A DNA stretch of 63,991 nucleotides from a virus. The notes beneath the pieces are model-generated. The model did no database searches, was not told the DNA's origin, and saw nothing but the letters and a program-made list of their open reading frames with translations. The position numbers and the translations under genes are program-made. Shown piece after piece: positions 4,118 through 24,044 of the stretch. The first letter of the stretch is position 1. The number at the start of each line of letters is the position of its first letter. Where the stretch lies: positions 1 to 63,991 of the IMG/VR virus record IMGVR_UViG_3300036780_000089. One strand, written 5' to 3'.

Positions 4118-5116
4118 ATGGCGGTCCGGTTCCGGATACTGGGCAGTGTCGAGGCCGGCATCAACGGTGAGCTGGTTGATCTGGGCCCTCGGCAGCAGCA
4201 GTGTGTCCTGGTGGCGCTGTTGGTCAACGCGAACCGGCCGGTGTCCGGCGACGAGCTGATCGAACGGGCCTGGGGCGAGAGCCCGCCGCCCAGGGCGCGC
4301 AACACCCTGTACACGTACCTGTCCCGGCTGCGTCAGGCCCTGTCCGGCACGGACGAGGTGACCTTGCTGCGCAGGCCGGCCGGCTATCAGCTGGTCGTCG
4401 ACGAACAAGCCGTCGACCTGCACCTGTTCCGCTCGCTGACCGCGCGGGCGCGGGAAACGCCCGATCATGGCACCGCGGTCCGGTTGATCCGGCAGGCGCT
4501 TGACCTGTGGCGCGGCGAAGCCCTGCCCGGCCTGGACACGCCCTGGCTGCACGGGATCAGGGCGACCCTGCTCAAGGACCGGTTGGCCACCGAACTTGAG
4601 TACACCGACCTGGCCCTGGCCGGTGGCCGGCACGCGGATCTGCTGGCGACGCTGGCCAGCCAGACCGAGCAGCGGCCGCTGGACGAGCGGCTGGCCGGCC
4701 AGTTCATGCTCGCGCTCTATCGCAGTGGTCGGCAGGCCGATGCGCTCACCCACTATCAGCGCACTCAGGCCCGACTCGGCGATGAACTGGGTATCCGGCC
4801 GAGCGAACCGTTGCGTACCCTCTACCAGCAGATGCTCACCGCCGACCCGGCGCTGGCCGCACCGCGCACCGGGCCGGCGCCCGGCCGGGCCGGATCGGCG
4901 GGCGCGGAGCGGGGCGGGTCGGTGGGCGCACATCTCGCGGAGTTGCCGGCGCCACGGCAGTTGCCGGCCGCGCCGAGGGCGTTCGCGGGCCGGGCCGCGG
5001 AGATCGCGTTGCTGTCCAGGGCGATCGACGAGCACCCGGGCAACGTCAGCGGCACCGTGGTGATCTCCGCGATCGGCGGTGCCGGTGGGATCGGCAAGCC
5101 CACGCCCGAGTTATGA
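4118..5116 (+). CDS. SARP/AfsR-type transcriptional regulator truncated at its P-loop by prophage insertion
   Basis: 332 aa remnant of a longer regulator. Residues 1-95 are an OmpR-like winged-helix DNA-binding domain (GPRQQQCVLVALLVN, NTLYTYLSRLRQAL). Residues 96-245 are a bacterial transcriptional activation domain (BTAD). From about 280 the NB-ARC ATPase begins (VVISAIGGAGGIGK). The frame is normal up to Lys327 of the Walker A motif; the next five residues (PTPEL) and the stop are read from phage DNA. Full-length AfsR-type proteins continue with NB-ARC and TPR domains, which here lie on the other side of the prophage, outside the window. What remains has the domain content of a small SARP such as ActII-ORF4 and could still bind DNA. 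Confidence 0.88.
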   Translation: MAVRFRILGSVEAGINGELVDLGPRQQQCVLVALLVNANRPVSGDELIERAWGESPPPRARNTLYTYLSRLRQALSGTDEVTLLRRPAGYQLVVDEQAVDLHLFRSLTARARETPDHGTAVRLIRQALDLWRGEALPGLDTPWLHGIRATLLKDRLATELEYTDLALAGGRHADLLATLASQTEQRPLDERLAGQFMLALYRSGRQADALTHYQRTQARLGDELGIRPSEPLRTLYQQMLTADPALAAPRTGPAPGRAGSAGAERGGSVGAHLAELPAPRQLPAAPRAFAGRAAEIALLSRAIDEHPGNVSGTVVISAIGGAGGIGKPTPEL

Positions 5117-5121
5117 CACAC
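5072..5121. other. attL: left prophage-chromosome junction
   Basis: The bases left of 5091 belong to the host regulator gene; those from 5091 are identical to the phage copy at 63865. The inferred crossover dinucleotide is AA at 5096-5097, inside the Lys codon of the host P-loop (GGC-AAG). The right half (5097-5121) is the phage P' arm, ending in the ATGACACAC sequence seen in attP. The outer limit of the host half-site is an estimate. Confidence 0.85.
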
Positions 5122-5217
5122 ACGTTACACAACTGTAACCTAGGGCCTGGGTTGACGCGTGACCTGGGAATCTCTCAGTGGCCGAGGCCGTGGCGCTCCC
5201 GGTCGCGGCGCACGTAC
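5091..5217 (+). repeat. 127-bp direct repeat, copy 1 (attL and phage left end)
   Basis: Identical over 127 bp to 63865-63991, the last bases of the window. It spans the att core, the P' arm, a small perfect dyad (GTTACA-CAAC-TGTAAC, 5124-5139) and the 3' end of the first phage gene. See the findings for its meaning. Confidence 0.97.
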
Positions 5218-5504
5218 GAGTGTGGGGTGATCAGGTGCGACGGGACGTAGTGCGTGATCAGCTCGGATGCGGCCTCGGCGTTCCGTGCCGGTAGTTGGTA
5301 GCTCACGCGGGCGAGCCATCCGCCGTCACCCCGCCTGGCCCACGCGTCGACCAAGCCGTGTACCTCGTGATCGAGTTCGAGGCCGCCCGGCGTGTCCCGG
5401 TAGATGTCGTGGACGTCGCGCGCCAACAGTCGGTGCACGTTCACCCAGACTCGGCGCGGTTCGTCCAGTTGACGGAACCATGACGGAGACACAGCCTCGA
5501 ACAT
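5175..5504 (-). CDS. Phage-end hypothetical protein, 109 aa
   Basis: Not recognised as a named family. It is rich in Arg, His and Asp, with no membrane segment. The first half has an amphipathic helical look (WVNVHRLLARDVHDIYRD) and the middle a beta-like stretch (GGWLARVSYQLP). It is the outermost gene at the attL end, 8 bp downstream of the kinase gene on the same strand, so it is probably the last member of that operon. Its final 14 codons are duplicated at the window end by the 127-bp repeat. Confidence 0.6.
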   Translation of the reverse strand: MFEAVSPSWFRQLDEPRRVWVNVHRLLARDVHDIYRDTPGGLELDHEVHGLVDAWARRGDGGWLARVSYQLPARNAEAASELITHYVPSHLITPHSYVRRDRERHGLGH

Positions 5505-5512
5505 GCGTTCGA

Positions 5513-6448
5513 TTACACCACATCGTCACGCCTGAATTCGGCGCCAATCCGGTCGGGGAAGTGCCGTTCTAGCCGGTACTTGGCCCACAGTCGGGCGGCG
5601 TCGGTCAACGCTGCCCGGTGCGGCATCGGGCGGTTGTGCAACAGCCATTCCCACACCCCGAGCACTTCCACCGCGAACAGCGTCACGGCCGGTTCCGGCA
5701 TCGCCCCCCACGCGGGTGTACGCGCCGCCCACCGCTCCGCGTCCAGCGGGGAATGCCCGGCGCTGATGAGTCGGATCACGAGAAACGCGGCATCCACCCA
5801 CGGCGCGGCCCGACGCGACCACGCCCAATCGATCAGCCGCGCGCGGCCACCGTCGATCATGATGTTGAGCGGCTGTACGTCGGTGTGGGCGAGGCTGTCA
5901 CCGCGCATGATGCTGATCGCGGCGGACTCGGCGTCATACCCGTAGATGAGAAGATCCCGTGTCCACGGGTCGAGATCAGGCGGGGTGTGGTTCAGCAACC
6001 GTTGCCATGCGCCTAGCCGTTCCCACTGGTCGGCGAAACTGGGCAGTTCGACGGGCGGGCAGGGTGTGAGCGTCACCTGTACCTCTGTGACCGCCGTGAT
6101 GATCAGCGGCAGATCAGCCGACCCCGGCCCGATATCCGCGTGCCGACCCGGTACATGCTCGAACCCGAGTAGCAGCCACCCAGCCGCCTCTACCTCCCAG
6201 AGCATCCGGGGCGCGACCGTGACCGGCAAGTAGCTGTTCACCCGAGCCTCGGTCCGATGGGTGACCGCGTTCGCCGAGTCGAGCTGAACGCCTTTCACGA
6301 ACACGCGTCCGGTGGCCGTGGTCAGCGACGCCGTGAAATCGGCATTGATCCCGGCGGACGCGTGCTCCACGCGGGAAACCTCCCCGCAACGCTCGACAAT
6401 GGCATGCCAGGCGTCGCCGGGGAGGTCTCTCAGGGCAGGATTGGTCAC
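5513..6448 (-). CDS. APH-fold small-molecule kinase (aminoglycoside phosphotransferase family)
   Basis: 311 aa protein-kinase-like phosphotransferase. The catalytic loop HTDVQPLNIMID carries the H-x-D-x4-N Brenner motif, and LIDWAWS supplies the metal-binding Asp. The N-lobe has VFVKG with the expected Lys and a Gly-rich AGINADFTASL. Family members phosphorylate aminoglycosides, other small molecules or sugars; the substrate cannot be read from sequence. I place the start at GTG 6448, which overlaps the stop of the preceding gene (GTGA); a longer reading from 6511 would run 67 nt into that gene. The overlap implies translational coupling, making this a lysogenic cargo operon with its upstream partner. 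Confidence 0.82.
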   Translation of the reverse strand: MTNPALRDLPGDAWHAIVERCGEVSRVEHASAGINADFTASLTTATGRVFVKGVQLDSANAVTHRTEARVNSYLPVTVAPRMLWEVEAAGWLLLGFEHVPGRHADIGPGSADLPLIITAVTEVQVTLTPCPPVELPSFADQWERLGAWQRLLNHTPPDLDPWTRDLLIYGYDAESAAISIMRGDSLAHTDVQPLNIMIDGGRARLIDWAWSRRAAPWVDAAFLVIRLISAGHSPLDAERWAARTPAWGAMPEPAVTLFAVEVLGVWEWLLHNRPMPHRAALTDAARLWAKYRLERHFPDRIGAEFRRDDVV

Positions 6449-6912
6449 GCGTCGCAGCTTAGTTTTCCGCCCTGGCCACAGTTCGTGCAGCCGCCATGGC
6501 ATTGCGAGCACTTACCCGACGCCTGCGCCCACAGTTCCTCGTTGACGACGAATCCCGCGCCCCGCATGGCTTCTACCGTGGGGTTCAGCATCGCGCCCGC
6601 GTCGACGGGTGGCGTGAATTCCTCGGGTTCGTGGTGAAGGAATCGGCCCGCGACCCGCTGACAGAAGATCGCATACTCGGCGGTGTTCAGGATGAATGTA
6701 TGCCACGCGACGTCAACAGACTTGGACGGCCGTAGCCGCCCTCCGGGATTGTCAGCACAGGTTTTGATGAACGCCAAGGCTTGATCAAGAATGGCCTCGG
6801 CGTAGTCCTGCTCTACCCCCTCGTTGGCCACGATTTGCCTTACCAGGCGGTCAAACACTTCCGGGCGTAGCAGAGATCGCCCGACTGTGAGAACTTCCAT
6901 GGTCGACGTCAT
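6445..6912 (-). CDS. WHTFIL-motif protein with Cys-rich C-terminal tail (GRDP-like family)
   Basis: 155 aa. The central block VDVAWHTFILNTAEYAIFCQ and the following GRFLHHEP resemble the glycine-rich-domain-like (DUF1399) family found widely in actinomycetes. The last 20 residues hold five cysteines (C-x2-C-x3-C-x2-C, then a fifth near the end), separate in composition from the helical core, as in a metal site or a modifiable tail. GGAAAGGA precedes the ATG by about 9 nt. Its stop overlaps the start of the APH-fold kinase, so the two are made together; a protein-kinase pairing is possible but unproven. Confidence 0.78.
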   Translation of the reverse strand: MTSTMEVLTVGRSLLRPEVFDRLVRQIVANEGVEQDYAEAILDQALAFIKTCADNPGGRLRPSKSVDVAWHTFILNTAEYAIFCQRVAGRFLHHEPEEFTPPVDAGAMLNPTVEAMRGAGFVVNEELWAQASGKCSQCHGGCTNCGQGGKLSCDA

Positions 6913-6971
6913 CGACTTGAATCCTTTCCTACGGGGGGTTGAGTCCGAATGTCAGCCGCGCGCAACCTCGG

Positions 6972-7277
6972 TTACGCGATCACCCGGCAGCTTGCGACGA
7001 CGGGGCCGACGTGGCGCGCGTGCCGCGTGGTCTCGGTCTCGATTTGCTTGCCTGCCGGGCGCACTGTGTTCGCAAGCGTGGTGCACGGCACGCACAGGGG
7101 ACGGGCGACGGTCCGCGCCATGGCGTCCGGGTCGGGCGTGCATACCTCGCCGTGTGTGTCGACGTCGGGCGGCCGGTTGGTCGTCGGGTCCACGGCCACG
7201 ACGGTCACACACTCCAGACAGAACGTGAATGATCTACCACACGAGTAGCAACCGGCTATCCCGCTGACCACGTCCAT
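6972..7277 (-). CDS. Small Cys-rich zinc-ribbon-like protein, 101 aa
   Basis: Cysteine pairs CYSCGRSFTFCLEC near the N-terminus and a later C-x2-C (CVPC) suggest a structural zinc site. It is the promoter-proximal gene of the leftward cargo operon. No ribosome site is visible and a -10-like TACATT lies close to the ATG at 7277, so it may be translated from a leaderless message. Function unknown. Confidence 0.6.
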   Translation of the reverse strand: MDVVSGIAGCYSCGRSFTFCLECVTVVAVDPTTNRPPDVDTHGEVCTPDPDAMARTVARPLCVPCTTLANTVRPAGKQIETETTRHARHVGPVVASCRVIA

Positions 7278-7285
7278 GGGTGCAA

Positions 7286-7341
7286 TGTAGCAGCGGACAC
7301 GTGACCAGTCTGCTACAGACGGTAGCGAAGTGATTTGCTAC
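7286..7341. promoter_or_regulatory. Divergent control region with GTAGC inverted repeats
   Basis: A perfect 8-bp inverted repeat TGTAGCAG (7286-7293) / CTGCTACA (7310-7317) is followed by GTAGC (7322-7326) / GCTAC (7337-7341). Another GTAGC lies at 7245. The cluster sits between the leftward cargo operon and the rightward membrane-protein gene, where a repressor operator would be expected. Confidence 0.55.
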
Positions 7342-7470
7342 TCGTACGCGTAACGGCACACGCACCGTAACCGACACATACCCTTGAACCGCGCGCAGAA
7401 AACCACCCCGGACCCCGGTGGCCCGCGCGGTTCCACCGTCGCTTTCTATGCGCTACCCAGGGGAAACACC

Positions 7471-8220
7471 GTGACCACGCCGCCCATGCAACCGCCCACG
7501 CCGACACCTACCGAGCCGCCGACCCGTCGCCGTCCGTGGTGGCGCCGCTGGTGGGCCATCGTCTTGTACGTGGTCGTCGTCGGACTGATCATTGACGTTG
7601 CGACCCTCGGCCACGGCCAGCCGAGCAACACCGCCGCCCACACGGCGCCCTCGGCGTCGACTAGCGCCCCGGCGGCCACAACCGCCACGCCGAACACCGC
7701 GACGCCCGTACGGGCCACTGGACGGCCAGCGACGACCACCACGCACCCGGCCGCGCCCAACGTCCCCGCCGACACGCTCACCGGCTACGGCGCCACCGTC
7801 GCCCGGTGGAACGCGACACACCACGCGGACCCGAGCTATGCGGGCGGTTCGGCGTACAACCCGGACCCGTCGCTACCCCCGGCCAACGGGCGCACAGCGG
7901 ACACGTACGTGGCCGTTCAGCCGCTCGGCGGGCGCGTCACCGACTACATGATGAACATGGCGGCCACGTCGTTGTCCGGCGCGGAAACCGTTGTCGCACA
8001 CGAATTCCCCGCCGACACGCACGTGTTGTGGACCCAACCGCTGGCCGGATGCACCATCGTCGAATACGCCAGTGCCACCGTGCGCGGCGCCCTCGGCAAC
8101 ACCGACACCGGGGACGCGCAAGTGGTGTACGCCAGCCAGCAGCCCGGCGCGTCCACTGTGGATGAAGCGACGTTCAGCAACATTCCCGGCGCCGCACCGG
8201 ACCCGGCCGCATCCTGCTAG
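7471..8220 (+). CDS. One-TM secreted/anchored phage protein, 249 aa
   Basis: A proline-rich cytoplasmic start (QPPTPTPTEPPTRR), a Trp/Arg cluster, one transmembrane helix (AIVLYVVVVGLIIDVATL, about residues 31-48), then a Thr/Ala/Pro linker and a globular external domain of about 140 residues. Two Cys in that domain could form a disulfide. I prefer GTG 7471, with AGGGG in front, over ATG 7384. A surface protein expressed from the lysogenic end could act in superinfection exclusion, but no family supports this directly. A bidirectional terminator follows. Confidence 0.72.
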   Translation: MTTPPMQPPTPTPTEPPTRRRPWWRRWWAIVLYVVVVGLIIDVATLGHGQPSNTAAHTAPSASTSAPAATTATPNTATPVRATGRPATTTTHPAAPNVPADTLTGYGATVARWNATHHADPSYAGGSAYNPDPSLPPANGRTADTYVAVQPLGGRVTDYMMNMAATSLSGAETVVAHEFPADTHVLWTQPLAGCTIVEYASATVRGALGNTDTGDAQVVYASQQPGASTVDEATFSNIPGAAPDPAASC

Positions 8221-8249
8221 CATCCCCGCTAGCGCCGGTTCGCACGAAC

Positions 8250-8291
8250 ACCTCGGCCCCCGTCTCCTGTCACGGATTCGGGGGCCGAGGT
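8250..8291. terminator. Bidirectional terminator between convergent genes
   Basis: Perfect 13-bp stem ACCTCGGCCCCCG / CGGGGGCCGAGGT with a 16-nt loop, lying exactly between the rightward gene ending at 8220 and the leftward gene ending at 8306. Confidence 0.75.
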
Positions 8292-8305
8292 GCGTCGGGG
8301 CCGAG

Positions 8306-8509
8306 CTACACGGCGGCGAGCGCCTCACGGTTCCGCGCGTCGCAATCGGCCTGAGCGGCGCCGTAGCCGGTGGCCTCGAACAGCACCGGCAACGGGACGG
8401 TGCCTCGGCTGTTCGCGTGCGCCACCCACGCCGCGTGATCCACGACGCGGTGAAACTTGCTCGGGTTGGTGTTCGAGTGCGGTTGCAAGATCACGAATGA
8501 CATGGTCAT
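8306..8509 (-). CDS. Small phage protein, 67 aa
   Basis: Starts at ATG 8509, overlapping the stop of the acetyltransferase gene (ATGA), so it is translationally coupled. The sequence has FVILQPHSNTNPSKFHRVVD and a Cys near the C-terminus; no family recognised. A longer reading from 8584 is less likely because it would overlap the upstream gene by 79 nt. Confidence 0.55.
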   Translation of the reverse strand: MTMSFVILQPHSNTNPSKFHRVVDHAAWVAHANSRGTVPLPVLFEATGYGAAQADCDARNREALAAV

Positions 8510-8898
8510 CCTCTCGTCATGAGCGCGCGGACGAAATCGGCGCCGGGTTGCGTGTAGCGCTGTGCGTACGGGTCCACCGGCCATCGGGTCATGGCCTCAC
8601 GGACCAGCCGCGTTCCGATACCCCGGCGCTGCCGGTCTTCCCGCACGATCACCAAGACGTTGCCCGCCTGTTCGTACGGCGGGAAGTCCATCGGGTAGTG
8701 ATTCAGGATGCCGACCAGCACGCCGGACGCGTCCCGGAACAACAGGCAGTCAATGTGAGCGCCCGGCCCGAACCCGTCGGACATGTCGCCCCGGAAGTAG
8801 CTCACACCGGGCTGCCCGGTCGGCGGGTACTGCTCGGCCTGCGATTCCCACGTGAACCACGTGTCACCCTGGAATACCGGCAACTCTCTCACTGCCAT
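8506..8898 (-). CDS. GNAT-family N-acetyltransferase
   Basis: 130 aa. The acetyl-CoA binding motif A is clear: NVLVIVREDRQRRGIGTRLV, with the Q/R-x2-G-x-G/A signature. The beta4-strand VLVIV precedes it. Such enzymes acetylate amines on small molecules or proteins; the substrate is unknown. It lies in the middle of a leftward accessory operon, 3 bp after one gene and overlapping the next. Phage GNATs can modify host targets, but nothing here identifies one. Confidence 0.8.
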   Translation of the reverse strand: MAVRELPVFQGDTWFTWESQAEQYPPTGQPGVSYFRGDMSDGFGPGAHIDCLLFRDASGVLVGILNHYPMDFPPYEQAGNVLVIVREDRQRRGIGTRLVREAMTRWPVDPYAQRYTQPGADFVRALMTRG

Positions 8899-8901
8899 GG
8901 C

Positions 8902-9498
8902 TCACCGCCCCCGCTGGTCGTCGGAGAACTGGACGCCGGGCACGGTGCGCCGGGGAGCGCGGGCGCGGCCCGTGGTGGCCGAGCTGGACGCCCGCGCGGG
9001 CGTCTTACTGGTCGCCGCCGTGTCGAGCGCCGCCGAGCTGACCGCCGCCAGGTGGTGACTTGCCGCCGCCGAGCGGGCCGCTGAACGCGCGGGCGTCGCC
9101 GTACGCGTGGTGGCCTTGCCCGTCGCCTTACTGGCCGCTGGCTTGCCCGTGGCGCGCTTAGTCGGCGCCGGGGCACGCCGAGGCCGCATGAGTGGCGCGC
9201 CGAGCTGTGTCGCCACGTTGACGGCCACGTTGTACGCGCCCGCGTAGCGTCCGGCCGCCACCTTGGCCCACGGCTCATAGTCGGTGTCCAGCACCGCGAA
9301 CCCGCCGATACGTTCGGTCACCGCGCACGTGTGCCCACTGACGATGCGCACACCCACCGTCGTGCCGATCACGATCACGTCCCCGTCGCCGATGCTGTCC
9401 GCGTCGTCGGCTACCGCGTATGGGTCCGCGTCATCGGCGGCCGTGACCGTGTGGACGGCGGTATGGCCGATGGTGCGGGTTTCGATAGATCTCGACAT
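8902..9498 (-). CDS. Phage protein with basic histone-H1-like tail, 198 aa
   Basis: The first 95 residues are acidic to neutral with beta-like segments (DGDVIVIGTTVGVRIVSG). From about residue 107 the protein becomes a low-complexity tail of Lys, Arg, Ala, Thr, Ser and Pro (KRATGKPAASKATGKATTRT), like histone-H1 or actinobacterial HupB tails. A nucleic-acid-binding role is suggested by composition only. It is co-directional with and 2 bp from the following HTH gene. Confidence 0.65.
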   Translation of the reverse strand: MSRSIETRTIGHTAVHTVTAADDADPYAVADDADSIGDGDVIVIGTTVGVRIVSGHTCAVTERIGGFAVLDTDYEPWAKVAAGRYAGAYNVAVNVATQLGAPLMRPRRAPAPTKRATGKPAASKATGKATTRTATPARSAARSAAASHHLAAVSSAALDTAATSKTPARASSSATTGRARAPRRTVPGVQFSDDQRGR

Positions 9499-9500
9499 GG

Positions 9501-10031
9501 TCAGCTCTCCACACTCGGGTCTCCGGTGACATGCTCGGCGATTTCCCGTGCGGCTTGGTCTCGGTCGTCGTACACGTTGAGTACTTGCGGGTTGTACTGG
9601 TACCGGCCATCGGGCATACCGTTACTCCAGTCGTGCGCCTCGGCGACGTAGGCAGGGCCGGTGCTGGTTTCGATTTCCCACATGTTGCCGATCGTGCGGC
9701 CGTATTCGTCGACAAACGTTGTTTGCGTCGCGGTGACTTCCGTAATTCCGCTGCTGCGCATTGCAATCCCTTTGCTGTGTTCGTGGACCGGTGAGCGCCT
9801 ATTTACGGCGTCGTCACCGTGCGATGGTCGGATGATGTCGGCTACGGCGGAACGCGGGAACAAGCTTTGTCCGCCCCGGCCCGGTTCGCGGCCGACAGCA
9901 TGGATTTCCGGGTGTCGGGTAAGCCATACGCCCGCTGAGCGGATGACGCGCGCCCGGTCACCCGAGTAGCCGAGCATCACCCCGATTTCGTATGTCGTGA
10001 TCGTGTCCGGTGCCGGTGCCTGATCGGACAT
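9501..10031 (-). CDS. Phage protein with N-terminal helix-turn-helix-like region, 176 aa
   Basis: Residues 10-68 (TTYEIGVMLGYSGDRARVIR through SLFPRSAVADII) read like an excisionase/MerR-type winged helix that ends in a beta-hairpin. The C-terminal half (from MRSSGITEV) is a separate domain with DEYGRTIGNMWEIET and could also be an independent product from that internal Met. Role unknown; a recombination or transcription accessory role is possible. Confidence 0.62.
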   Translation of the reverse strand: MSDQAPAPDTITTYEIGVMLGYSGDRARVIRSAGVWLTRHPEIHAVGREPGRGGQSLFPRSAVADIIRPSHGDDAVNRRSPVHEHSKGIAMRSSGITEVTATQTTFVDEYGRTIGNMWEIETSTGPAYVAEAHDWSNGMPDGRYQYNPQVLNVYDDRDQAAREIAEHVTGDPSVES

Positions 10032-10113
10032 GGTGTTGCGCTCCCTCGGTTCGGCGTGCGGCCTCGCGTTGAGCGGACGCTACCGCCCCCGCGTGAGGCG
10101 CGAACCGAGGCGT

Positions 10114-10359
10114 TTAGACGTCTGTCGGCCTGACCGTTTCCAAGTGGCGGCCGATCACCTCGGCGTGCGTGACCTGGTCGGGTCGGACGTCCTCCTGTAG
10201 CTCACCGTCGACATTGACGCCGAGCATGGAACCCATGCCGGTGACGGTGCCGGTGTGCGTCTTGCCGCCGCGTGTGAACGTCACCCGCATACGTAACGTG
10301 TGCGAGCCCTGAATGCCGCGCCACACGGCGTTGAGCGTGAGCAGGGACCAACCACTCAT
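10114..10359 (-). CDS. Small phage protein, 81 aa, beta-rich
   Basis: Contains TLRMRVTFTRGGKTHTGTVT and a Gly/Met/Val stretch typical of a small beta-barrel. No family recognised. GAGGAG precedes the ATG. It is the first gene of the leftward run, transcribed from the control region at 10360-10516. Confidence 0.58.
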   Translation of the reverse strand: MSGWSLLTLNAVWRGIQGSHTLRMRVTFTRGGKTHTGTVTGMGSMLGVNVDGELQEDVRPDQVTHAEVIGRHLETVRPTDV

Positions 10360-10413
10360 GATCGTTTACTCCTCGGTAGGAAATGCCCGGCGGGGGCCGA
10401 GCGATGCCAGTAT

Positions 10414-10428
10414 GTAGTACCGTACTAC
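10414..10428. promoter_or_regulatory. Perfect palindrome in divergent intergenic region
   Basis: GTAGTAC-C-GTACTAC, a 7-bp inverted repeat around one base. It lies between the leftward gene starting at 10359 and the rightward gene starting at 10517, as expected for an operator controlling both. Confidence 0.55.
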
Positions 10429-10516
10429 GGGCAGGCAATCGAGGGCCGGTCCCGGACTGGTAACAGGCACCGCGACCGGGCACGATGAACCCAGCGAACC
10501 GAGGGAGCACACCACC

Positions 10517-10891
10517 ATGACCGTCACGCACACGCCCACATTCCAGGACACCGACGACCACTTTCTCGGGTCGGGCGCGCTCGACTTTCACCCCTGGTAC
10601 ACGAACATTTCGACGACCGACGCCACCGACACCGAATCGTGGACACTCACCTTTACGGACCCGGCCGACGAACCGGCGGACGATGTGGCCGCGACAGAAC
10701 GCACCATCACCCACGCTGACATCATGCGCGCCGTTGGGCAGATTGCGGACGGGACGGTGGAAATGCGGGAGGAATACCGGGAGGAATGCCAACTGTTCGA
10801 GTCCGGCGAACTGGACGCGGTCGACTTTGACGCAATCTCGGCGGACGTCGTCATTCAGGTGGCCGCGTTCGGGAAAGTCGTCTACGGCTGA
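10517..10891 (+). CDS. Acidic phage protein, 124 aa
   Basis: Very acidic, with clusters of Asp, Glu and Thr and a helical C-terminal part (IMRAVGQIADGTVEMREEYR). It lacks Lys almost entirely, a composition seen in phage DNA-mimic and inhibitor proteins, though no such family is recognised. GAGGGAG lies in front of the ATG. The next gene starts one base after its stop. Confidence 0.6.
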   Translation: MTVTHTPTFQDTDDHFLGSGALDFHPWYTNISTTDATDTESWTLTFTDPADEPADDVAATERTITHADIMRAVGQIADGTVEMREEYREECQLFESGELDAVDFDAISADVVIQVAAFGKVVYG

Positions 10892-11194
10892 ATGAGCGCC
10901 AACGACACAGGCAACGTCACGCCGACAACTAGTTCGGCTCTTGCCCACACGTTGCGACGGGCCGGAATCATGACCGTGCCCACCCGATTGCGGGAAGGTG
11001 TCTACGTGACCGGCGGCGACCCCAACCGGCGCGGCCCCGTGTCGGTCAGCGTGCAAATCGACCACGACCAGCGCCACGCCGACAATCTCGCCGCCGCTGT
11101 GCGAGACGTGCTGGACGGCGCCGGTCTCGTGTACCAGTACAGACAAGACGACGACGGTTACCACTCGTTCACCGTGGAAGGACGCCGAGGCTAA
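10892..11194 (+). CDS. Small phage protein, 100 aa
   Basis: Begins directly after the stop of the acidic protein gene. An alpha-beta pattern (ALAHTLRRAGIMTVP, VSVSVQIDHD, LAAAVRDVLDGAGLVYQY) suggests a compact fold. Function unknown; probably co-translated with its neighbour. Confidence 0.6.
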   Translation: MSANDTGNVTPTTSSALAHTLRRAGIMTVPTRLREGVYVTGGDPNRRGPVSVSVQIDHDQRHADNLAAAVRDVLDGAGLVYQYRQDDDGYHSFTVEGRRG

Positions 11195-11259
11195 CCGCAC
11201 ACCGTCTCCCGGCCCCTTGCGCGCTAAGCGTGGGGGGTCGGTCTCGTGTCCGCCCAGGG

Positions 11260-11520
11260 TCACCAGCGCCGCCGATCCACGATCAGTAGAAACTCGTCGA
11301 CCGGCACGCACAACGTGTTCAGCATGTCGACCACGCGGACGGCCGCCGTGTGCATGTCAAGCTCACGGTGTTGGCCCGCGTACGTGTGCGCCTCGACCCA
11401 CCGGTTAGCGCTGCCCCCGTCGAACGCGCGACACTCCCACCGATGCACGTAGCGGCCGTACCGGTCGCGGACGTCGTCGGGTATGTCCTCGGCCTCGGCC
11501 AACCGCCGAGCCGCGCTCAC
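11260..11520 (-). CDS. Small phage protein, 86 aa
   Basis: GTG start at 11520 overlaps the stop of the upstream gene (GTGA). Helical N-terminus rich in Arg and Asp, then a segment with a HRELDMHTAAVRVVDML helix. No family recognised. Confidence 0.55.
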   Translation of the reverse strand: MSAARRLAEAEDIPDDVRDRYGRYVHRWECRAFDGGSANRWVEAHTYAGQHRELDMHTAAVRVVDMLNTLCVPVDEFLLIVDRRRW

Positions 11521-12161
11521 GACGCGGCAGGGACGTAGCGCAACGCCGCCTGTAGCCGCTCGTCCAGGTCGGCATGCGCCAACGGGCCGTCTTTGTCCGC
11601 CGCTTCCCGTAGCAGCGGCATACCCGACTCAATCGAGGCCATGACGTCCGCGTGCGTTGCCGGTTTCCCCTCGGCGAACCACAAGGTTTCGATCGGCTCA
11701 CCGACGTTGAACAACACGCCACCGTCCACAGTGAACGACGTGTGCGTTCGCGTCCGCCACACCAGCGCGACGCCCGGATTCCGTGCGATCATGACGCCGG
11801 GCGGGTCCACCTTGTCCACTGGTAGCCCGCGCTCTCGCCGGATCATGCTCGGCCTGGTCAGGAACGGACAGAACCGCGCCGAGTACACCGCACAATCCGT
11901 GTGACACGGCGGCTCGGCCGAGACGCGGTTGACCGCGCACATGGGACCGATCACGAACGCCGCGTCATCCATGCGCGGTTGCCCGCACACCCAACACAGC
12001 CCGAACCATAGGGCTTTGTGTAGGCGTCTCTCGTCGGCCACCCGGAAATCGGGCGTGTCGTTGTTGCCGTCTGACCGGTCCACAAAGTACGGGATCGGCC
12101 GCCCTTTCCGGTCACGCGGCAACGCCCGGATATGTCCCGGCATGTCTCGCGTCTTGAACAT
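11517..12161 (-). CDS. Conserved phage Cys-rich protein (CWVCG / CHxxCAxYS type)
   Basis: 214 aa. CWVCGQPRMDDAAFVIGPMC and AEPPCHTDCAVYSARFCPFL are repeated cysteine pairs like those of a conserved family found in many actinophage and actinobacterial genomes, and fit two zinc sites. Function of the family is unknown. ATG 12161 has AGGAAG at good spacing and was preferred to GTG 12167. It is coupled to the 86-aa gene downstream. Confidence 0.72.
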   Translation of the reverse strand: MFKTRDMPGHIRALPRDRKGRPIPYFVDRSDGNNDTPDFRVADERRLHKALWFGLCWVCGQPRMDDAAFVIGPMCAVNRVSAEPPCHTDCAVYSARFCPFLTRPSMIRRERGLPVDKVDPPGVMIARNPGVALVWRTRTHTSFTVDGGVLFNVGEPIETLWFAEGKPATHADVMASIESGMPLLREAADKDGPLAHADLDERLQAALRYVPAAS

Positions 12162-12163
12162 GA

Positions 12164-12391
12164 TCACTTCCTAGGACTGTTGATCTCCCGTGCCACTTGT
12201 CGCGTCCACGACGTCGCCGACACCGACACCGTGACATTGGCGACCGCTAGCGCCGCCCACATCTCGGCCGCCGCCGCGTGGCCGTGCATCATTGCTGCGA
12301 CCGTGCTCCATACGGCCGCGAATGCTGAAATAGACGCCGATACCCACATCACGCCCAGTCGTGCGCGGGTCGCGGTACTGCGCCGCGTCAT
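12164..12391 (-). CDS. Small membrane protein, 75 aa, two TM segments
   Basis: Starts at ATG 12391, overlapping the upstream stop (ATGA). Two hydrophobic helices, LGVMWVSASISAFAAVWS and EMWAALAVANVTVSVSA, are joined by a His-containing loop. Holin, exclusion or signalling roles are all possible; the sequence does not decide. Confidence 0.62.
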   Translation of the reverse strand: MTRRSTATRARLGVMWVSASISAFAAVWSTVAAMMHGHAAAAEMWAALAVANVTVSVSATSWTRQVAREINSPRK

Positions 12392-12663
12392 GTCGTTGCG
12401 GTGTAAGCGGTTCCCGCACCCCCATGCGACCGGAACCGCGCGAATCGTGCATAGATGTCGTTCATGGCGACCGCCAGATATCGCGTCTTGTCCTGACTGG
12501 ACAGAGACTCGTCGACCACGATCACCGGCCGACCGTCCACAATGTCCCAACCCGCGCCCCGGAAACCCAAGTCCGTGAACAGTACGCGCGGAACGTCGCC
12601 GCCATCGCCGCCCGTGCCGTCACCGTCGCTGGTGTCATCTCTTGGTCTCAACTTGTGAGCCAT
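12388..12663 (-). CDS. Phage protein resembling the N-terminal part of ImmA/IrrE-like proteins, 91 aa
   Basis: The stretch VIVVDESLSSQDKTRYLAVA looks like the strand-turn-helix that precedes the metal-binding helix in ImmA-type antirepressor peptidases, but the expected HExxH is absent (MNDIYARF stands in its place). It may be a degenerate or non-catalytic relative, or the similarity may be accidental. An operator-like element lies 27 bp upstream of its start. Confidence 0.5.
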   Translation of the reverse strand: MAHKLRPRDDTSDGDGTGGDGGDVPRVLFTDLGFRGAGWDIVDGRPVIVVDESLSSQDKTRYLAVAMNDIYARFARFRSHGGAGTAYTATT

Positions 12664-12689
12664 GGTGTCAGTTCTCCCGGTGTCCGATG

Positions 12690-12703
12690 ACTAAGAACTG
12701 AGT
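12690..12703. promoter_or_regulatory. Possible second repressor operator
   Basis: ACTAA-GAAC-TGAGT matches the layout of the perfect dyad at 13669-13684 (ACTCA-GCAT-TGAGT) with one mismatch in the arms and the same 4-base spacer. It sits just upstream of the leftward operon starting at 12663. Confidence 0.4.
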
Positions 12704-12716
12704 AAGAACGCGTGCG

Positions 12717-13079
12717 CTACATAGGCGCCCCCTGGCATCGCAGCGGGCCGCCGGTCGCGAACACTTCCGACACCAGGCCACGCCACCCTTGCGCCGACAG
12801 GTCGGACACGGGTTCACCGCGTTGGTAGCGGCACGCCGTCTGTTGCGACACTGTGAGCAGGGCGCCGAGGCGCGCTTGCCGATATGCCCCCTCGGCCTGC
12901 CATCGGTCGCACACCAGCGTGATCAGTTCGGTTGGGGTGCCCAGATAGGCGAGACCTTCCACGGTGGACGGTGGGTCAACACCGGGCGGACCGGTGAGCT
13001 TGAACCATCGTCCGTCGTCCGCTCCGTACACCGCGCGCCACGGAATCGCGGCAGGCCCTTGTGGTGTCCGGTCGTCCAC
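12717..13079 (-). CDS. Phage protein, 120 aa, possible HTH at C-terminus
   Basis: AYRQARLGALLTVSQQTACRYQRG reads like a helix-turn-helix with a recognition helix, preceded by a longer region with Trp and Pro. No named family. It lies alone between the repressor-like gene and the 12.7-kb operon. Confidence 0.55.
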   Translation of the reverse strand: MDDRTPQGPAAIPWRAVYGADDGRWFKLTGPPGVDPPSTVEGLAYLGTPTELITLVCDRWQAEGAYRQARLGALLTVSQQTACRYQRGEPVSDLSAQGWRGLVSEVFATGGPLRCQGAPM

Positions 13080-13258
13080 GTTCCGCGCTCCTGTACATGT
13101 CGTCCCGCCTCGCCGCCGTTTCCGATGGGACGCGCTAATGAGTACGTGCGCGTCACCTCTCCGGCGGCGAGATATCAGACCCTATGTACCCAGAGCAGCG
13201 TACGGCAACCGTCATCCCACGATTGTGCGAAATTTACTGTCAGTACCACGCGCGCTTG

Positions 13259-13642
13259 CTACTCCTGGTGATCTTTGTTGCGCGCTGCCCGGCGCACCCG
13301 CCGACCGTATTCCTCGGCCGTGTCGTGTGAAATGTGTTCATCTACGATCACCGTGGCGCCCGGCCGCCACAGTTGCGGGAATCCCAGTTCACGCGAACAC
13401 GCGTTCAACACTTGTTCATAGGACACGTCCAGCGCGGCGGCCATCGTCTCAATGGTTTTCGGCTTGGGATACTCTTTGATTCCCCGAATAACGAATGCGC
13501 TCAATTGCGCCTGGCTCAAGTCCTCTAGGCCACGTTCCCAGGCGCGTTTGAGTAGTTTATTGAACGACATTTTATCCCGCGTTTTGACGTAGTCAATCAG
13601 CTTGCCCAATGGCAGGGTGTTCACGGGATCGGCGTCGGACAT
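13259..13642 (-). CDS. Probable immunity repressor (XRE-like HTH)
   Basis: 127 aa with an HTH near the centre: SQAQLSAFVIRGIKEYPKPK then TIETMAAALDVSYEQVLNAC, the usual XRE order of helices. It is transcribed divergently from a Cro-like HTH gene at 13863, the classic arrangement of a lysogeny switch. GGGGAGAG precedes the ATG, and a perfect dyad (13669-13684) overlaps the likely promoter, allowing autoregulation. The repressor assignment is by position and domain. Confidence 0.68.
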   Translation of the reverse strand: MSDADPVNTLPLGKLIDYVKTRDKMSFNKLLKRAWERGLEDLSQAQLSAFVIRGIKEYPKPKTIETMAAALDVSYEQVLNACSRELGFPQLWRPGATVIVDEHISHDTAEEYGRRVRRAARNKDHQE

Positions 13643-13650
13643 GCTCTCCC

Positions 13651-13782
13651 CTAGCTAGGTGGTGGCCGTACTCAGCATTGAGTATCTAACCACCAGGCGT
13701 CTTACGCCAGACATCTACCGGCATCATCACCACACCGTGTGATAAACGGCGCTTGACGTGCGGCGATAGACAGACCTACGGT
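13651..13782. promoter_or_regulatory. Lysogeny-switch intergenic region: operators and divergent promoters
   Basis: Contains CTAGCTAG (13651-13658), the perfect dyad TACTCA-GCAT-TGAGTA (13669-13684), GGCGT-CTT-ACGCC (13696-13708), CACAC-C-GTGTG further right, and a rightward promoter candidate TTGACG-18 bp-TACGGT (13753-13782) for the Cro-like gene. Several dyads between divergent HTH genes are typical of a phage switch. Confidence 0.6.
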
Positions 13783-13862
13783 GACCCACACACGCCAACG
13801 GGCGGTGACCAGGGACGATAGACACTCTCCCGACCCTCACCGCGCACGACCACGGGGCGACC

Positions 13863-14132
13863 ATGGCCGTGTACGTCTCACTTCGCAGCGTGAGCGCTCT
13901 CCGAGACCGGATGGCCCTCACGCGGACCACACAAGCGGCGCTCGCACTCGCCGCACATACGAGTGCCGCTCGCATTTCACAAATTGTGTCGGGTCGCGTC
14001 ACGACAATTACGGTTGCCGCTGCCGCCGCCATTGAGCTTGCTCTTGGCGTGCCGCGCGGGGCGCTTTTTGCCGTGCCCGAACCGCCCGACCTGGTACAGC
14101 CCTACGTCACCTCGCAACAAGGGGTGGCGTGA
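13863..14132 (+). CDS. Cro-like XRE HTH regulator, 89 aa
   Basis: Nearly all HTH: TTQAALALAAHTSAARISQI then SGRVTTITVAAAAAIELAL, a standard XRE fold. First gene of the rightward early operon, divergent from the repressor-like gene, so a Cro or early activator role is likely. Confidence 0.72.
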   Translation: MAVYVSLRSVSALRDRMALTRTTQAALALAAHTSAARISQIVSGRVTTITVAAAAAIELALGVPRGALFAVPEPPDLVQPYVTSQQGVA

Positions 14133-14228
14133 ACACCCACGCCATGCGAGAGAAAGCCGTCTGATTCGCGCAGGGAATGCAAATTCATGCGGCGAATTCT
14201 CCACGCACACACATTCAAAGGGTGAGCG

Positions 14229-14516
14229 ATGTCAGCACCGCAAAGGCATACCGTCCGCGTCACCAATCGGTACAGCGAGGCCGCCATGTGGGTAATGTGG
14301 CGGTTGTGCGCGCTGCCCACATGGGCTATAAGCGCCGCCGTCGTGATAGTCGGACCCCATCTGTCCACTGTGCCCGGATTCCTGTCCACCATGGCACGCC
14401 ATGTCGGTGATCGAGCCGCCGACGTGTGGAACCGGCCCACCACAACCTATGTCGGCGTGATCGCCGGGGTAGTTGGCCTCGCAATCTTTTCCGGTCTCAT
14501 CGGCCACGCGTCGTGA
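14229..14516 (+). CDS. Small membrane protein, 95 aa
   Basis: Two or three hydrophobic helices (MWVMWRLCALPTWAISAAVV and TYVGVIAGVVGLAIFSGLIG) with a basic start. AAAGGGTGA precedes the ATG. The following gene begins inside its stop codon (TGATG). Role unknown. Confidence 0.65.
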   Translation: MSAPQRHTVRVTNRYSEAAMWVMWRLCALPTWAISAAVVIVGPHLSTVPGFLSTMARHVGDRAADVWNRPTTTYVGVIAGVVGLAIFSGLIGHAS

Positions 14517-14806
14517 TGCACATGTCCCTGATCATTCATCGCTGCGCCGTGTGCGCACACCCGGACATCTACCACGACGGTGACCGCGCCCGTTCGTGCT
14601 GCTGGACGCAATGCCACATCGGACCCCACGTCATGCTGCCCGCACCGTCCGAACTCCTCACCACCTACACGCCGGACGGTGCCGCCGTGGCCCGAATCGA
14701 ACCACCCGGAACGGCGTTTCGCGGGTTCGGCCGGGGCACCGTCGACCTGTGCGGGTGCGCGAACTGTGAGGCGCTGTACGCGTCGGTGACAGGCGGTGCC
14801 GCGTGA
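14516..14806 (+). CDS. Small zinc-ribbon-like phage protein, 96 aa
   Basis: HRCAVCAHPDIYHDGD and SCCWTQCH near the start, then DLCGCANCEALY near the end, give four cysteine pairs likely to bind zinc. Coupled by overlap on both sides. Function unknown. Confidence 0.65.
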   Translation: MHMSLIIHRCAVCAHPDIYHDGDRARSCCWTQCHIGPHVMLPAPSELLTTYTPDGAAVARIEPPGTAFRGFGRGTVDLCGCANCEALYASVTGGAA

Positions 14807-15240
14807 CGCCCACGGCCACCGTCGACCGGCCCGCCGCCGAGCTGCCCGCCCGTGCCCCCGGTGGCCTGCCGGACGTGCTCAGCCACTACACGTGCGTACA
14901 CAGCGCCCTCGGCATCGACCAGGACCGGTTGATCCGGCCCCGTCGACACCCCCTGTTCGGTGCCGCCCTGGTGTGGCTGACCGACCTCTACCCGCCCGAC
15001 CGGTACGCACTCGGCCTCACCTCGGCGTGGATTCGATGCGACCGGACGGCCGCCCGTGTCCGCGTCCACCCCGGACCCGACATTGTCCCGTGGGGACGGT
15101 GGGCGCACGAGCACCGCGTGCCCCGCACCATCCGCGAACTACTGGAAGAGGGCGCCATGCCTGCCCACTGGTGGGTGTCCGTCGCGCCCGTGCCCGTCCT
15201 GACCGTGCACACCTATTCGCAGGAACAACCCCATGGCTGA
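14803..15240 (+). CDS. Conserved actinophage protein (HYT...WLTD type), 145 aa
   Basis: GTG start overlaps the previous stop. LSHYTCVHSALGIDQDRLIR and LVWLTDLYPP, with a later ALGLTSAWIRCDRTA, recur in many actinophage proteins of unknown role. The His-Tyr-Thr plus downstream WLTD layout faintly recalls ADP-ribosyltransferase-type (DarT-like) folds, but the catalytic Glu cannot be placed with confidence. Confidence 0.65.
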   Translation: MTPTATVDRPAAELPARAPGGLPDVLSHYTCVHSALGIDQDRLIRPRRHPLFGAALVWLTDLYPPDRYALGLTSAWIRCDRTAARVRVHPGPDIVPWGRWAHEHRVPRTIRELLEEGAMPAHWWVSVAPVPVLTVHTYSQEQPHG

Positions 15241-15583
15241 ACCCACACCCGAATCCACGCCCGACCCCGTGGCCGTCCCCCTCGACACCGACATGGCCGG
15301 ATGGCTCGCCGCGTACCGGCGCGCCCGCGACAAAGTCAAGCATTGGGCCGCCACCGCCGAGGCCGCACAGAAACACGTCACCGACCTGTTGGACGCGCAC
15401 GGCGCCGGAATCGGCACTGTCGACGGACACCCCGCCGTGCGCTGGACGCGGGTCGAAAGCCGCCGGGTCGACGGTGCCCGGTTGCGCGCCGATCACCCCG
15501 ACCTTGCCGACGAATACAGCAGCGTCGTCGTGTCGCGCCGGTTCAGCACGCCCAACGTCCCCACCGAACGGACCGTGTCATGA
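15233..15583 (+). CDS. Recombination-associated phage protein, 116 aa
   Basis: A helical N-terminal half (WLAAYRRARDKVKHWAATAE) is followed by a small beta unit with GTVDGHPAVRWTRVESRRVD. Proteins of this pattern sit next to YqaJ/RecB-type exonucleases in many actinophages, as here (15819). A role in recombination or nuclease partnering is inferred from position. Confidence 0.62.
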   Translation: MAEPTPESTPDPVAVPLDTDMAGWLAAYRRARDKVKHWAATAEAAQKHVTDLLDAHGAGIGTVDGHPAVRWTRVESRRVDGARLRADHPDLADEYSSVVVSRRFSTPNVPTERTVS

Positions 15584-15828
15584 CCGGTTTCAGCAAAGCC
15601 GAATGCCCCTGGTGTGGGCGCGCGCTCACACTCAGCCGCTCCGGTGTGTCCCCTCGGCACAAGCGTGTCACCGGAACGCACATCGTCACCGGCGCCCCCG
15701 TCCGCGCCTGGTGCCCCGGTTCCTCCGAGCTGCCGTGGGCGCTCCACGCCGAACAGCGTCGGCAACTCCGTAGCCAATGGCGGGATGACGCCGGGGAATT
15801 GCGCGGCGGTGACGACGGATGGAACTAA
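15580..15828 (+). CDS. Small zinc-ribbon protein, 82 aa
   Basis: ATG 15580 overlaps the preceding stop. CPWCGRALTLSR at the N-terminus and a later Cys (WCPGS) fit a half zinc ribbon. Rich in Trp and Arg. Coupled upstream and downstream within the recombination operon. Confidence 0.6.
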   Translation: MTGFSKAECPWCGRALTLSRSGVSPRHKRVTGTHIVTGAPVRAWCPGSSELPWALHAEQRRQLRSQWRDDAGELRGGDDGWN

Positions 15829-16595
15829 CCACCCTTGCCCCGCCGAGCATTCCCGCGCCGCCAAGCGGTACGGCCGCCCTCGCCGAGGACATTCGCGGCG
15901 TCGTCATCGACGCGGCCCGCCGCGCGCCACGCAGCCAGCAAACCGCCCTCGGCCCGTCCGAGATCGGCGAGGCGTGCGCCCGCAAGCTCAGTTACAAGCT
16001 CATGGCGCACACGGAATACAACGCCGGTTCCGACCCGTGGCCCTCGATAGTCGGCACCGCTGTGCACGCCTGGCTAGCCGACGCGTTCCTTGCCGTCAAC
16101 GAACGATTGGGCCGGATTCGCTATCTCGTTGAGCAGCGGCTCACGATCAGGGACGGCCTCACCGGCACGTGCGATTTGTACGACGTCGACCGGGGCATGG
16201 TCATTGATCACAAAGTGCCCGGCACCACGTCCATGACCAAGACGAAAAAAGACGGCCCGTCACCCACCTACCGGGCGCAAGCACACCTCTACGGCCTCGG
16301 CTATGCGCGGCTCGGCCTGCCCGTGCGTGACGTCGCGTTGGCGCTGTATCCGCGCGGCGGGATGCTGTCCGGTCTGTGGATATGGTCGCAGCCCTACGAC
16401 GAAACCGTGGCGCTCCAAGCACTCGCGCGGCATGACGCGATCCTCGAAGCCGCGTGCGCGCTGGACGTGGCGCACCATCCCGAGCGGTACCGGCAGATTC
16501 CGCGCACGGTCGGTCACGCGTGCACCTATTGCCCGTACTGGCGTCCCGGCCGTGATACCGGCGACGGATGCCCCGGCCACCTGGAAGACGAATGA
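15819..16595 (+). CDS. RecB/Cas4-like PD-(D/E)XK exonuclease with Fe-S cluster cysteines
   Basis: 258 aa. GTAVHAWLADAF, then TGTCDLYDVDRGMVIDHKV, give the PD-(D/E)XK active site (Asp, then Asp-x-Lys). An early Cys (GEACARKLSYKL) and a C-terminal CTYCPYW with a last Cys in GCPGH match the 1+3 cysteine layout of Cas4/AddB-type Fe-S nucleases. It would resect dsDNA ends for phage recombination with the SSB-like protein at 17478. The last 42 bp, coding for the final Cys and C-terminus, are repeated 188 bp downstream. Confidence 0.82.
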   Translation: MELTTLAPPSIPAPPSGTAALAEDIRGVVIDAARRAPRSQQTALGPSEIGEACARKLSYKLMAHTEYNAGSDPWPSIVGTAVHAWLADAFLAVNERLGRIRYLVEQRLTIRDGLTGTCDLYDVDRGMVIDHKVPGTTSMTKTKKDGPSPTYRAQAHLYGLGYARLGLPVRDVALALYPRGGMLSGLWIWSQPYDETVALQALARHDAILEAACALDVAHHPERYRQIPRTVGHACTYCPYWRPGRDTGDGCPGHLEDE

Positions 16596-16783
16596 CGATG
16601 GATGCAAGGCAACGGGCGGTAGCTCGCGCTACCGAGGCCGCTCAGTCGCTGCCGGAAAACCAGCGGTTGAACTACATGGCAGATGCGGCTCAGCGGTTTC
16701 ACCATGCGGCAGGACAGTCCACGGTCACCACGAACGCCGACGATACCGGCGACGGATGCCCCGGCCACCTGGAAGACGAATGA
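16554..16783 (+). repeat. 42-bp direct repeat bounding a 188-bp unit
   Basis: 16554-16595 and 16742-16783 are identical over 42 bp. The first copy ends the exonuclease gene, the second ends the 63-aa gene inside the unit, so both proteins finish with DTGDGCPGHLEDE. Confidence 0.93.
16592..16783 (+). CDS. 63-aa protein sharing its C-terminus with the exonuclease
   Basis: ATG 16592 overlaps the exonuclease stop (ATGA). The body is helical (ARQRAVARATEAAQSLPE, NYMADAAQRFHHAAGQ) and the last 13 residues are the same as those of the exonuclease, coded by the direct repeat. It carries one copy of the Cys that completes the nuclease Fe-S motif. It may be a real small partner or a by-product of a tandem duplication. 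Confidence 0.55.
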   Translation: MTMDARQRAVARATEAAQSLPENQRLNYMADAAQRFHHAAGQSTVTTNADDTGDGCPGHLEDE

Positions 16784-17106
16784 ACCACGTTTACCGCACG
16801 GGCAGTCACAACGCCCGCAACATCTACCGGTGCGGCCGAGACCGCGACACAGACGAACACGTGGGCGTCACGTTCGCACCGGAATTCGCGCGCTACATCG
16901 TGCGCACCCTCAACCTGTACACGAATCACGCCAACGCCTATGACGCGTTGCACCGCATCGCCGAGGCGCACCGGCAAGTCGTGGACGCCGCTGGTGGCGT
17001 GTCTGGCTATTGCTGCGAATGCGATCAGGTGTGGCCGTGCCCTACCCGCAAGTGGGCCACGCTGTCCGTCGGCAGCCCCTTGGAACCATGGGACGCCGAC
17101 ACGTGA
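16780..17106 (+). CDS. Conserved small phage protein with CCECDQVWPCPTR motif, 108 aa
   Basis: ATG 16780 overlaps the previous stop. The C-terminal YCCECDQVWPCPTRKWA is a zinc-ribbon variant repeated in many actinophage early proteins. The N-terminal part is helical (HVGVTFAPEFARYIVRTLN). Function unknown; position suggests a replication/recombination accessory. Confidence 0.65.
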   Translation: MNHVYRTGSHNARNIYRCGRDRDTDEHVGVTFAPEFARYIVRTLNLYTNHANAYDALHRIAEAHRQVVDAAGGVSGYCCECDQVWPCPTRKWATLSVGSPLEPWDADT

Positions 17107-17393
17107 CCAGCACGGCGGAAGCGCTCGAATGTCCACGATGCCAACGCGGCGCCGAACTGTGGCCCTGTCCACGATGCGCCCGTGAGATGTGCTGGTGGTG
17201 TCTGTGGGCGCACGCCGACGATGCCCCTGACGACCCGACCGACGATGACAACGGGAGTCCCGACGATGACCACTCACGATTGCCCCGGTGGATGCGGCGC
17301 GCCCGTCGTGCGGCATCGGTTCGCGTGCGGCGTGTGTTGGCGTCGCCTGCCCGCACAGCTGCGCCGCGCGATCACCAGCACCTACAACGTTGA
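17103..17393 (+). CDS. Zinc-ribbon protein, 96 aa, overlapping the next gene
   Basis: GTG start overlaps the preceding stop. CPRCQRGAELWPCPRCAREM and CWWCLWAH hold three cysteine pairs. After about residue 54 an acidic stretch and then an Arg-rich tail are read through the region that also encodes the 71-aa protein in another frame; the tail may not be constrained. Confidence 0.58.
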   Translation: MTSTAEALECPRCQRGAELWPCPRCAREMCWWCLWAHADDAPDDPTDDDNGSPDDDHSRLPRWMRRARRAASVRVRRVLASPARTAAPRDHQHLQR

Positions 17394-17481
17394 CCACACC
17401 GCACACGCCCGCGCCATGGTGCGCGCCATGCACTGGTACTGCGACATTCCGCTACAACGCAAGGGAGCACCGTCCCAATGA
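17266..17481 (+). CDS. Zinc-ribbon protein, 71 aa
   Basis: ATG 17266 has GGGAG 9 nt upstream and lies 128 nt inside the previous frame. CPGGCGAPVVRHRFACGVCW is a clean two-pair zinc ribbon, followed by a helical RRLPAQLRRAITSTYN. Its stop overlaps the ATG of the SSB-like gene. It is a recurrent phage type and more convincing than the end of the overlapping gene. Confidence 0.68.
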   Translation: MTTHDCPGGCGAPVVRHRFACGVCWRRLPAQLRRAITSTYNVDHTAHARAMVRAMHWYCDIPLQRKGAPSQ

Positions 17482-18164: not shown

Positions 18165-18174
18165 CGCGGTCACC

Positions 18175-18405
18175 ATGACATTCGCGGCATCCACGACCAC
18201 GCTGTACGCGCTGCGACACACCGTCTGTGGACACGTGGTCGGCGTCGGCAACAGCCCGGCCATTCTCGAACGCGTCCAAGCGAGGTCGGCGCCCGGTTGG
18301 GCGTGCGACTGGCGGATCACGCCGAACCCGACCGACGCCGACCTAGCTCAACTTATCCGTGGCGAACGGTGCTCCTACTGCGCATCCGTTGCCGACAACC
18401 GATAG
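18175..18405 (+). CDS. Small phage protein, 76 aa
   Basis: ATG 18175. TLYALRHTVCGHVVGVG and a C-terminal CSYCA may bind zinc. No family recognised. It is 10 bp after the SSB-like gene. Confidence 0.58.
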   Translation: MTFAASTTTLYALRHTVCGHVVGVGNSPAILERVQARSAPGWACDWRITPNPTDADLAQLIRGERCSYCASVADNR

Positions 18406-18430
18406 GTACGAAAGGAAACCGTATTACCGA

Positions 18431-18841: not shown

Positions 18842-19015
18842 GCATTGCCCCTGGTGGCCGACCCGTAGGTAAGAGCGGGCAACACGTCACGCAACCCCCA
18901 GAGTCCGTGACACGGGTTTCACAGCAGAGAACGGGTGGACCCACCCGCCGCCACCACCAGCCGCGCACCGCGCGACACACCCCGAGGCACCAGCCACCCC
19001 GAGCGGAGGTCTGTC

Positions 19016-21508: not shown

Positions 21509-21556
21509 CCGATGCGACCCGACCCGCAGTGCCTCATCTGGCCGGTAGGGACGTGT

Positions 21557-21703: not shown

Positions 21704-21787
21704 CCCACCATATAAAGCTATACGTACGCACACAGATAGGCCGTTATATGTCGACGCGGGCACTATCCGACCCTGCCGAGGCGGTTC

Positions 21788-22216: not shown

Positions 22217-22230
22217 GGGAACGAATACAC

Positions 22231-22503: not shown

Positions 22504-22507
22504 TTTG

Positions 22508-24026: not shown

Positions 24027-24044
24027 GCGTTGACAGCGTGGCCG

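Follow-up and report, generated by a model that had tools for sequence, protein, structure and literature searches.

A clade of large serine integrases predicted to use Walker A P-loop DNA as attB, and the splitting of a SARP regulator gene by one of its phages

Introduction

A temperate phage is usually addressed to a tRNA gene or to a single conserved gene. The DNA analysed here (the window, 63,991 bp, a single-contig IMG/VR entry covering the attL and attP junctions rather than attR and the right fragment of the gene) holds a phage joined to a large regulator gene in the middle of its Walker A motif. A sequence-only reading of this locus had placed the crossover in the Walker A lysine codon, described the truncated gene as encoding a small SARP-like activator, and proposed a broad target within NB-ARC genes together with a regulatory role for lysogeny. 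Two questions follow, namely what the integrase reads as its address and what becomes of the regulator that is broken there.

Results

The phage interrupts a SARP gene, predicted to be of the large AfsR type, whose left part lies at 4118..5116 on the plus strand, as judged by Pfam, alignment with AfsR and a structure model; the end at 5121 given earlier is corrected to 5116. The product has 332 aa: a winged helix, BTAD and a linker precede the beginning of NB-ARC, which reaches as far as the Walker A lysine, and the C-terminus is ...GGAGGIGK-PTPEL-stop. Lys 327 is encoded by AAG at 5096-5098, and the translation bears out that five phage-coded residues (PTPEL) and a stop follow it. Trans_reg_C (residues 20-92) and BTAD (99-240) both score above the Pfam gathering cut-offs, and this order of an OmpR-type winged helix and then BTAD, with the AfsR alignment, places the protein among the SARPs. 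Alignment pairs residues 2-247 with the SARP construct of AfsR in the solved structure 8hvr, in line with the make-up claimed for the truncated product, and residues 2-329 with AfsR 24-338, up to the AfsR Walker A region. The structure predicted with 18 homologues has pLDDT 87-98 in blocks of residues 1-250 and mostly low values in the remainder. Homologues that are 52-60% identical to the protein have 925-1034 aa or lie within long open frames, and the best SARP identity of 60% suggests that the host of the phage is probably a member of Pseudonocardiaceae. Synteny of the LD-transpeptidase/SARP pair was not found in the six best SARP genomes and four other SARP loci.

The final 127 bases of the contig (63865..63991, plus strand) are an exact repeat of 5091-5217 at an offset of 58,774. 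The copies cease to agree immediately to the left of TCGGCAAG, where the host reads GGTGCCGGTGGGATCGGCAAG and the phage GTGTGTTATAACCCTGGTGTCGGCAAG. As one copy is flanked by host DNA and the other by phage DNA, the second is the attP of a circular phage (63836..63905, plus strand) and the first is attL (5062..5131, plus strand, from comparison with attP), with the crossover dinucleotide AA at 5096-5097. A dyad scan of attP put the best centre at the AA of 63870-63871 in GGC-AA-GCC, with arms GTGTGTtATAAC / GTTATgACACAC and 23 of 35 positions paired (17 at the next offset). The crossover dinucleotide is thus the first two bases of the AAG codon of Lys 327, as the earlier reading had it. The 127-base overlap resembles a de Bruijn k-mer, and the assembler probably followed a path from host through attL and phage to attP, halting on re-entry into the phage start. 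Such re-entry requires both integrated and circular forms, which indicates excised or circular phage DNA in the sample, and the presence of attL and attP in one assembly suggests that integration is physically reversible. The same overlap marks the join as a branch point through which the assembler passed, as it would in a chimera of an unrelated host contig and a phage contig. A chimera is nevertheless very improbable because the join falls exactly at the attP dyad centre and because independent genomes are joined at the same codon on single long contigs (e.g., G318).

From the end repeat and gene content, a temperate phage genome of 58,774 bp spans 5098..63871 and encodes a large terminase, portal, scaffold, tape measure, endolysin, primase/polymerase, repressor and integrase. 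Just within the left phage end is a gene for an APH-family phosphotransferase (5513-6511, minus strand; a weak Pfam match above the cut-off), which has a 33% identical relative in the G325 element. A tail-spike-like protein with a pectin-lyase-type match (27241-29118, plus strand) precedes the terminase, and a protein within the head gene block (36262-37458, plus strand) matches phrog_26352, of unknown function, and weakly a glycosyltransferase family.

The integrase gene (61005..62612, minus strand) encodes 535 aa with Resolvase and Recombinase domains (Pfam) and a phrog_95 profile match spanning 104-524. The resolvase catalytic domain is PF00239, in which YLRLSD with S29 is invariant in all ten aligned rows, and the Recombinase domain PF07508 is accompanied by a long C-terminal part; DUF4368 is absent from the Pfam matches, and the target is GC-rich and motif-specific. 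The att sites have the 2-bp crossover, the imperfect attP dyad and the attL/attR identity confined to the core region that characterise large serine recombinases. The window integrase belongs to this class by these features, and recombination activity is predicted for it. Between the integrase and attP lies an ORF of 408 aa without a Pfam match (62612..63838, minus strand), which overlaps the integrase start; in most relatives the integrase start is near the junction instead.

We then read the insertion sites of the window and of 22 relatives that had been picked by integrase only, blind to target. Nine relatives (51-56% identity) came from 390 genomes of Pseudonocardiaceae, the family of the Saccharothrix locus L005; integrase alignment searches gave ten more from 301 genomes in the family to which the Micromonospora locus L007 belongs and three more from 395 genomes sampled across the whole class. 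The Walker A lysine codon is split at 18 of the 23 sites, window included, and the genes concerned are of NB-ARC, HelD-like, TadA/CpaF-like and ABC-F kinds. NB-ARC right fragments begin exactly at GK-T in G318, G325, G144, G262 and G335, a left NB-ARC fragment ends at GVGK in G301 (reverse orientation), and NB-ARC genes are also hit in G652, G424, G431 and G445a (reverse). The ABC-F ATPase of G002 is split at ENGVGK/STLL in reverse orientation, a HelD-like UvrD-type helicase gene is hit in G408, G433 and G455, and the three whole-class relatives, two of them reversed, interrupt the Walker A motif of a secretion ATPase of the TadA/CpaF-like kind (FLVTGGTGTGK or FGKTTLLSSLLSLADPGDRLLLVEDSAELRPEH), assigned from translations read by eye rather than by profile search. 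The HelD-like genes (loci L100, L101 and L105) are a repeat target of one integrase sub-branch, in a helicase family that is linked to rifamycin tolerance.

The right fragment that the earlier reading would have sought on another contig was found in the relatives, where the right flank continues the NB-ARC frame, so the outcome named earlier as refuting does not arise there; in G318 it comprises NB-ARC and TPR. No two of the NB-ARC right fragments share more than 44% identity, so they come from different genes and separate insertions. Pfam profiling of the left halves of G318, G262 and G431 identified SARP fragments (Trans_reg_C plus BTAD); those of G144, G335 and G424 lie outside the comparison, and a search for the left half in G455 was without success. 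At the attR of loci L046, L047 and L043, ATG codons in the phage arm share one open frame with the NB-ARC right fragment (MTVRVM...CHKQVFGKT), and a right-hand NB-ARC/TPR product could be made from these loci.

At the remaining five of the 23 sites the Walker A codon is not the target (G308, in a CopD-like gene, G022, G471, G435 and G445b). The sites of G308, G471 and G435 look like degenerate versions of the motif (GGCCAGCC, GGCACGACC and GGCAACCC, respectively), while no P-loop was found in the DNA beside the G022 integrase, whose insertion is probably intergenic. Large serine integrases commonly insert in coding sequence (PMC10083194), and an ordinary phage could land in a conserved codon once, with no preference at the family level. 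Such a coincidence is extremely improbable given that the same codon of unrelated genes is split at 18 of 23 sites, for which a generous chance model gives about 1e-65. Some insertions, among the three HelD-like and the three TadA-like cases, may be inherited rather than independent. A recurrent preference for Walker A DNA thus stands, and the broad target proposed earlier holds for the NB-ARC genes; its limitation to them was too narrow, as ABC-F, HelD-like and TadA/CpaF-like genes are also hit.

Both ends of the insertion could be read in eight relatives. The reconstructed attB encodes GxxGxGK[TS] in seven of them (G318, G325, G262, G652, G431, G408 and G002); G308 instead has a CA core at a non-P-loop site, GGGC-CA-GCCGG, in the CopD-like gene. 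AAG is the sole sequence common to attL and attR in G652, and in G431, G408 and G002 the attL/attR identity starts exactly at the core AA or TT. Taken with the attP dyad, the identity of AAG alone in G652 sets the crossover at the first two bases of the lysine codon. Elements with an AA core insert along the gene, and G002 with its TT core inserts against it. This tracking of orientation and target with the core (AA, TT or CA) is, on the junctions read, what core-determined serine recombination predicts. The G308 phage (loci L044 and L053-L055) is a natural core-swap, CA for AA, that appears to have retargeted it to the CopD-like gene. The dyad scan by itself found no att sites in the genomic relatives, which is expected because attR sites are hybrids. 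As a single-protein query against viral contigs the integrase found no relative; an alignment search of these contigs gave 16, and the metagenomic phage contigs L073 and L074 have P-loop-like attP centres (TCCGGC-AA-GACG and GTGGGC-AA-GACC).

How many such addresses a genome offers was estimated by motif counts. The pattern GGNNTCGGCAAGACC occurs 10-46 times per genome vs 0-2 times for the reversed pattern. Twenty matches in G318 were read in translation; 19 resemble Walker A motifs (NB-ARC, LuxR-type, ParA-, Lon-, ComM- and SNF2-like proteins, among others) and one a transporter. Since several motif genes would be costly to lose, the bias of the insertions to NB-ARC regulators is probably survivorship. 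In the integrase tree, P-loop targeting is scattered across the clade and forms no single group, with 4 changes, no better than shuffles; we read it as an ancestral trait with losses, of which the tree gives no proof.

Discussion

We have documented the site in the window, the attP/attL pair, recurrence in 17 relatives, the minimal crossover interval, insertion in both orientations and the abundance of the motif. On this basis it is very probable that a phage integrase family uses Walker A P-loop DNA as attB with crossover at the AA of the lysine codon, the truncation of the SARP included. In the mechanism that we propose, a large serine integrase would recognise the DNA for the Walker A P-loop, G-x-G-[IV]-G-K-[TS], with an attB of approximately GGNNTCGGC-AA-GACC in GC-rich actinobacteria, and would cross over on the AA of the lysine codon. 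P-loop DNA is nearly invariant, and each genome has tens of copies of it among dispensable regulators and other NTPases, so the phage would find a usable attB in many hosts. Integration would inactivate the large regulator by severing ATPase and sensor, and a stop codon just within the phage arm would leave a stand-alone DNA-binding/activation module that may act free of ATP or ligand control until excision restores the gene.

Actinophage integrases of the same enzyme class, such as those of the Streptomyces phage phiScoe3 and the Mycobacterium phages Curiosium and Kumao (phrog_95), are 29-31% identical to the window integrase over most of the protein and do not belong to the present clade; in four such phages, neither a dyad scan nor a look at the DNA next to the integrase revealed a GGC-AAG P-loop-like core. 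Durrant et al. 2022 (PMC10083194) describe site-specific and multi-targeting large serine recombinases that favour conserved coding sites, a Mg chelatase/ATP-dependent protease gene being hit by 12.4% of the site-specific ones. As in that study, related integrases here share one motif across several target genes; unlike there, the address is a protein functional motif common to unrelated NTPase families, and the main text of the paper contains neither P-loop nor ATPase as a term and sets out no motif of this kind. The multi-targeting clade of that study commonly has DUF4368, with an example of a relaxed AT-rich target, in contrast to the window integrase with its GC-rich motif target (PMC10083194). 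The literature searched gave no account of serine integrases that target Walker A or NB-ARC DNA, and absence from it is not proof.

Whether the split regulator does anything for the phage is a separate question. The left fragment stops 5-13 residues past the lysine in the window, G318, G262, G431, G652 and G301, so that the gene retains its SARP module and loses the STAND control region; the left ORF of G325 stays open for some 55 residues without a quick stop, a point against a regulatory use of the truncation. The winged-helix and BTAD make-up is that of the AfsR SARP domain and of small SARPs such as ActII-ORF4, from which the product differs in being made by phage insertion and in having about 80 additional residues, mostly of low confidence in the model, and a tail encoded by the phage. 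On its own, the SARP domain of AfsR binds DNA and activates transcription, more actively in vitro than full-length AfsR, whose NOD and TPR inhibit the SARP domain until ATP relieves the inhibition (PMC10936776). A deregulated activator is therefore plausible. The NOD is also said to be essential for AfsR function in vivo, per literature quoted in PMC10936776, and as the AfsR evidence cuts both ways we consider it doubtful that truncation of the SARP yields a constitutive product of biological meaning.

The earlier reading went further, in that lysogeny could make the SARP constitutive, or switch it off, and excision would restore the full gene. Extended to a regulatory switch, this would have the phage profit from the change, as in active lysogeny. 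In the known cases, a phage in comK of Listeria and the Sa3int phage in hlb of S. aureus, the prophage likewise splits a chromosomal gene that excision can restore (PMC6872733, PMC6597384); the target here is a motif rather than one gene, a defined N-terminal activator module stays intact, and the case is known from sequence. The circular phage in the sample and a window SARP module that folds with high confidence in the structure model, along with the retained module and the in vitro activity of its AfsR counterpart, speak for such a benefit. We nonetheless judge it unlikely, since the same integrase clade inserts in genes of HelD-like, TadA/CpaF-like and ABC-F kinds, which yield no product of this sort, and a regulatory effect is more likely a by-product. 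Equally tentative is the wider proposal that a clade of phage and island integrases evolved to read Walker A DNA as a many-copy address in very different hosts, with SARP hits yielding a ligand- and ATP-independent activator that couples phage state to specialised metabolism.

In essence, what emerges is a predicted clade of large serine integrases with a P-loop-coding attB and tens of sites per genome. A motif address common to unrelated NTPases would explain integration in very different hosts and the genes that are broken, which are AfsR-type regulators above all, together with HelD-like helicases, TadA/CpaF-like ATPases and an ABC-F protein. Caution is to be exercised with annotations, as some 'small SARP' or 'NB-ARC fragment' entries may be prophage-split genes. 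The natural core-swap variants AA, TT and CA would serve studies of serine-integrase targeting, the clade may supply new integrases for actinomycete genetics, and a connection between lysogeny and antibiotic-type regulators in actinomycetes becomes testable.
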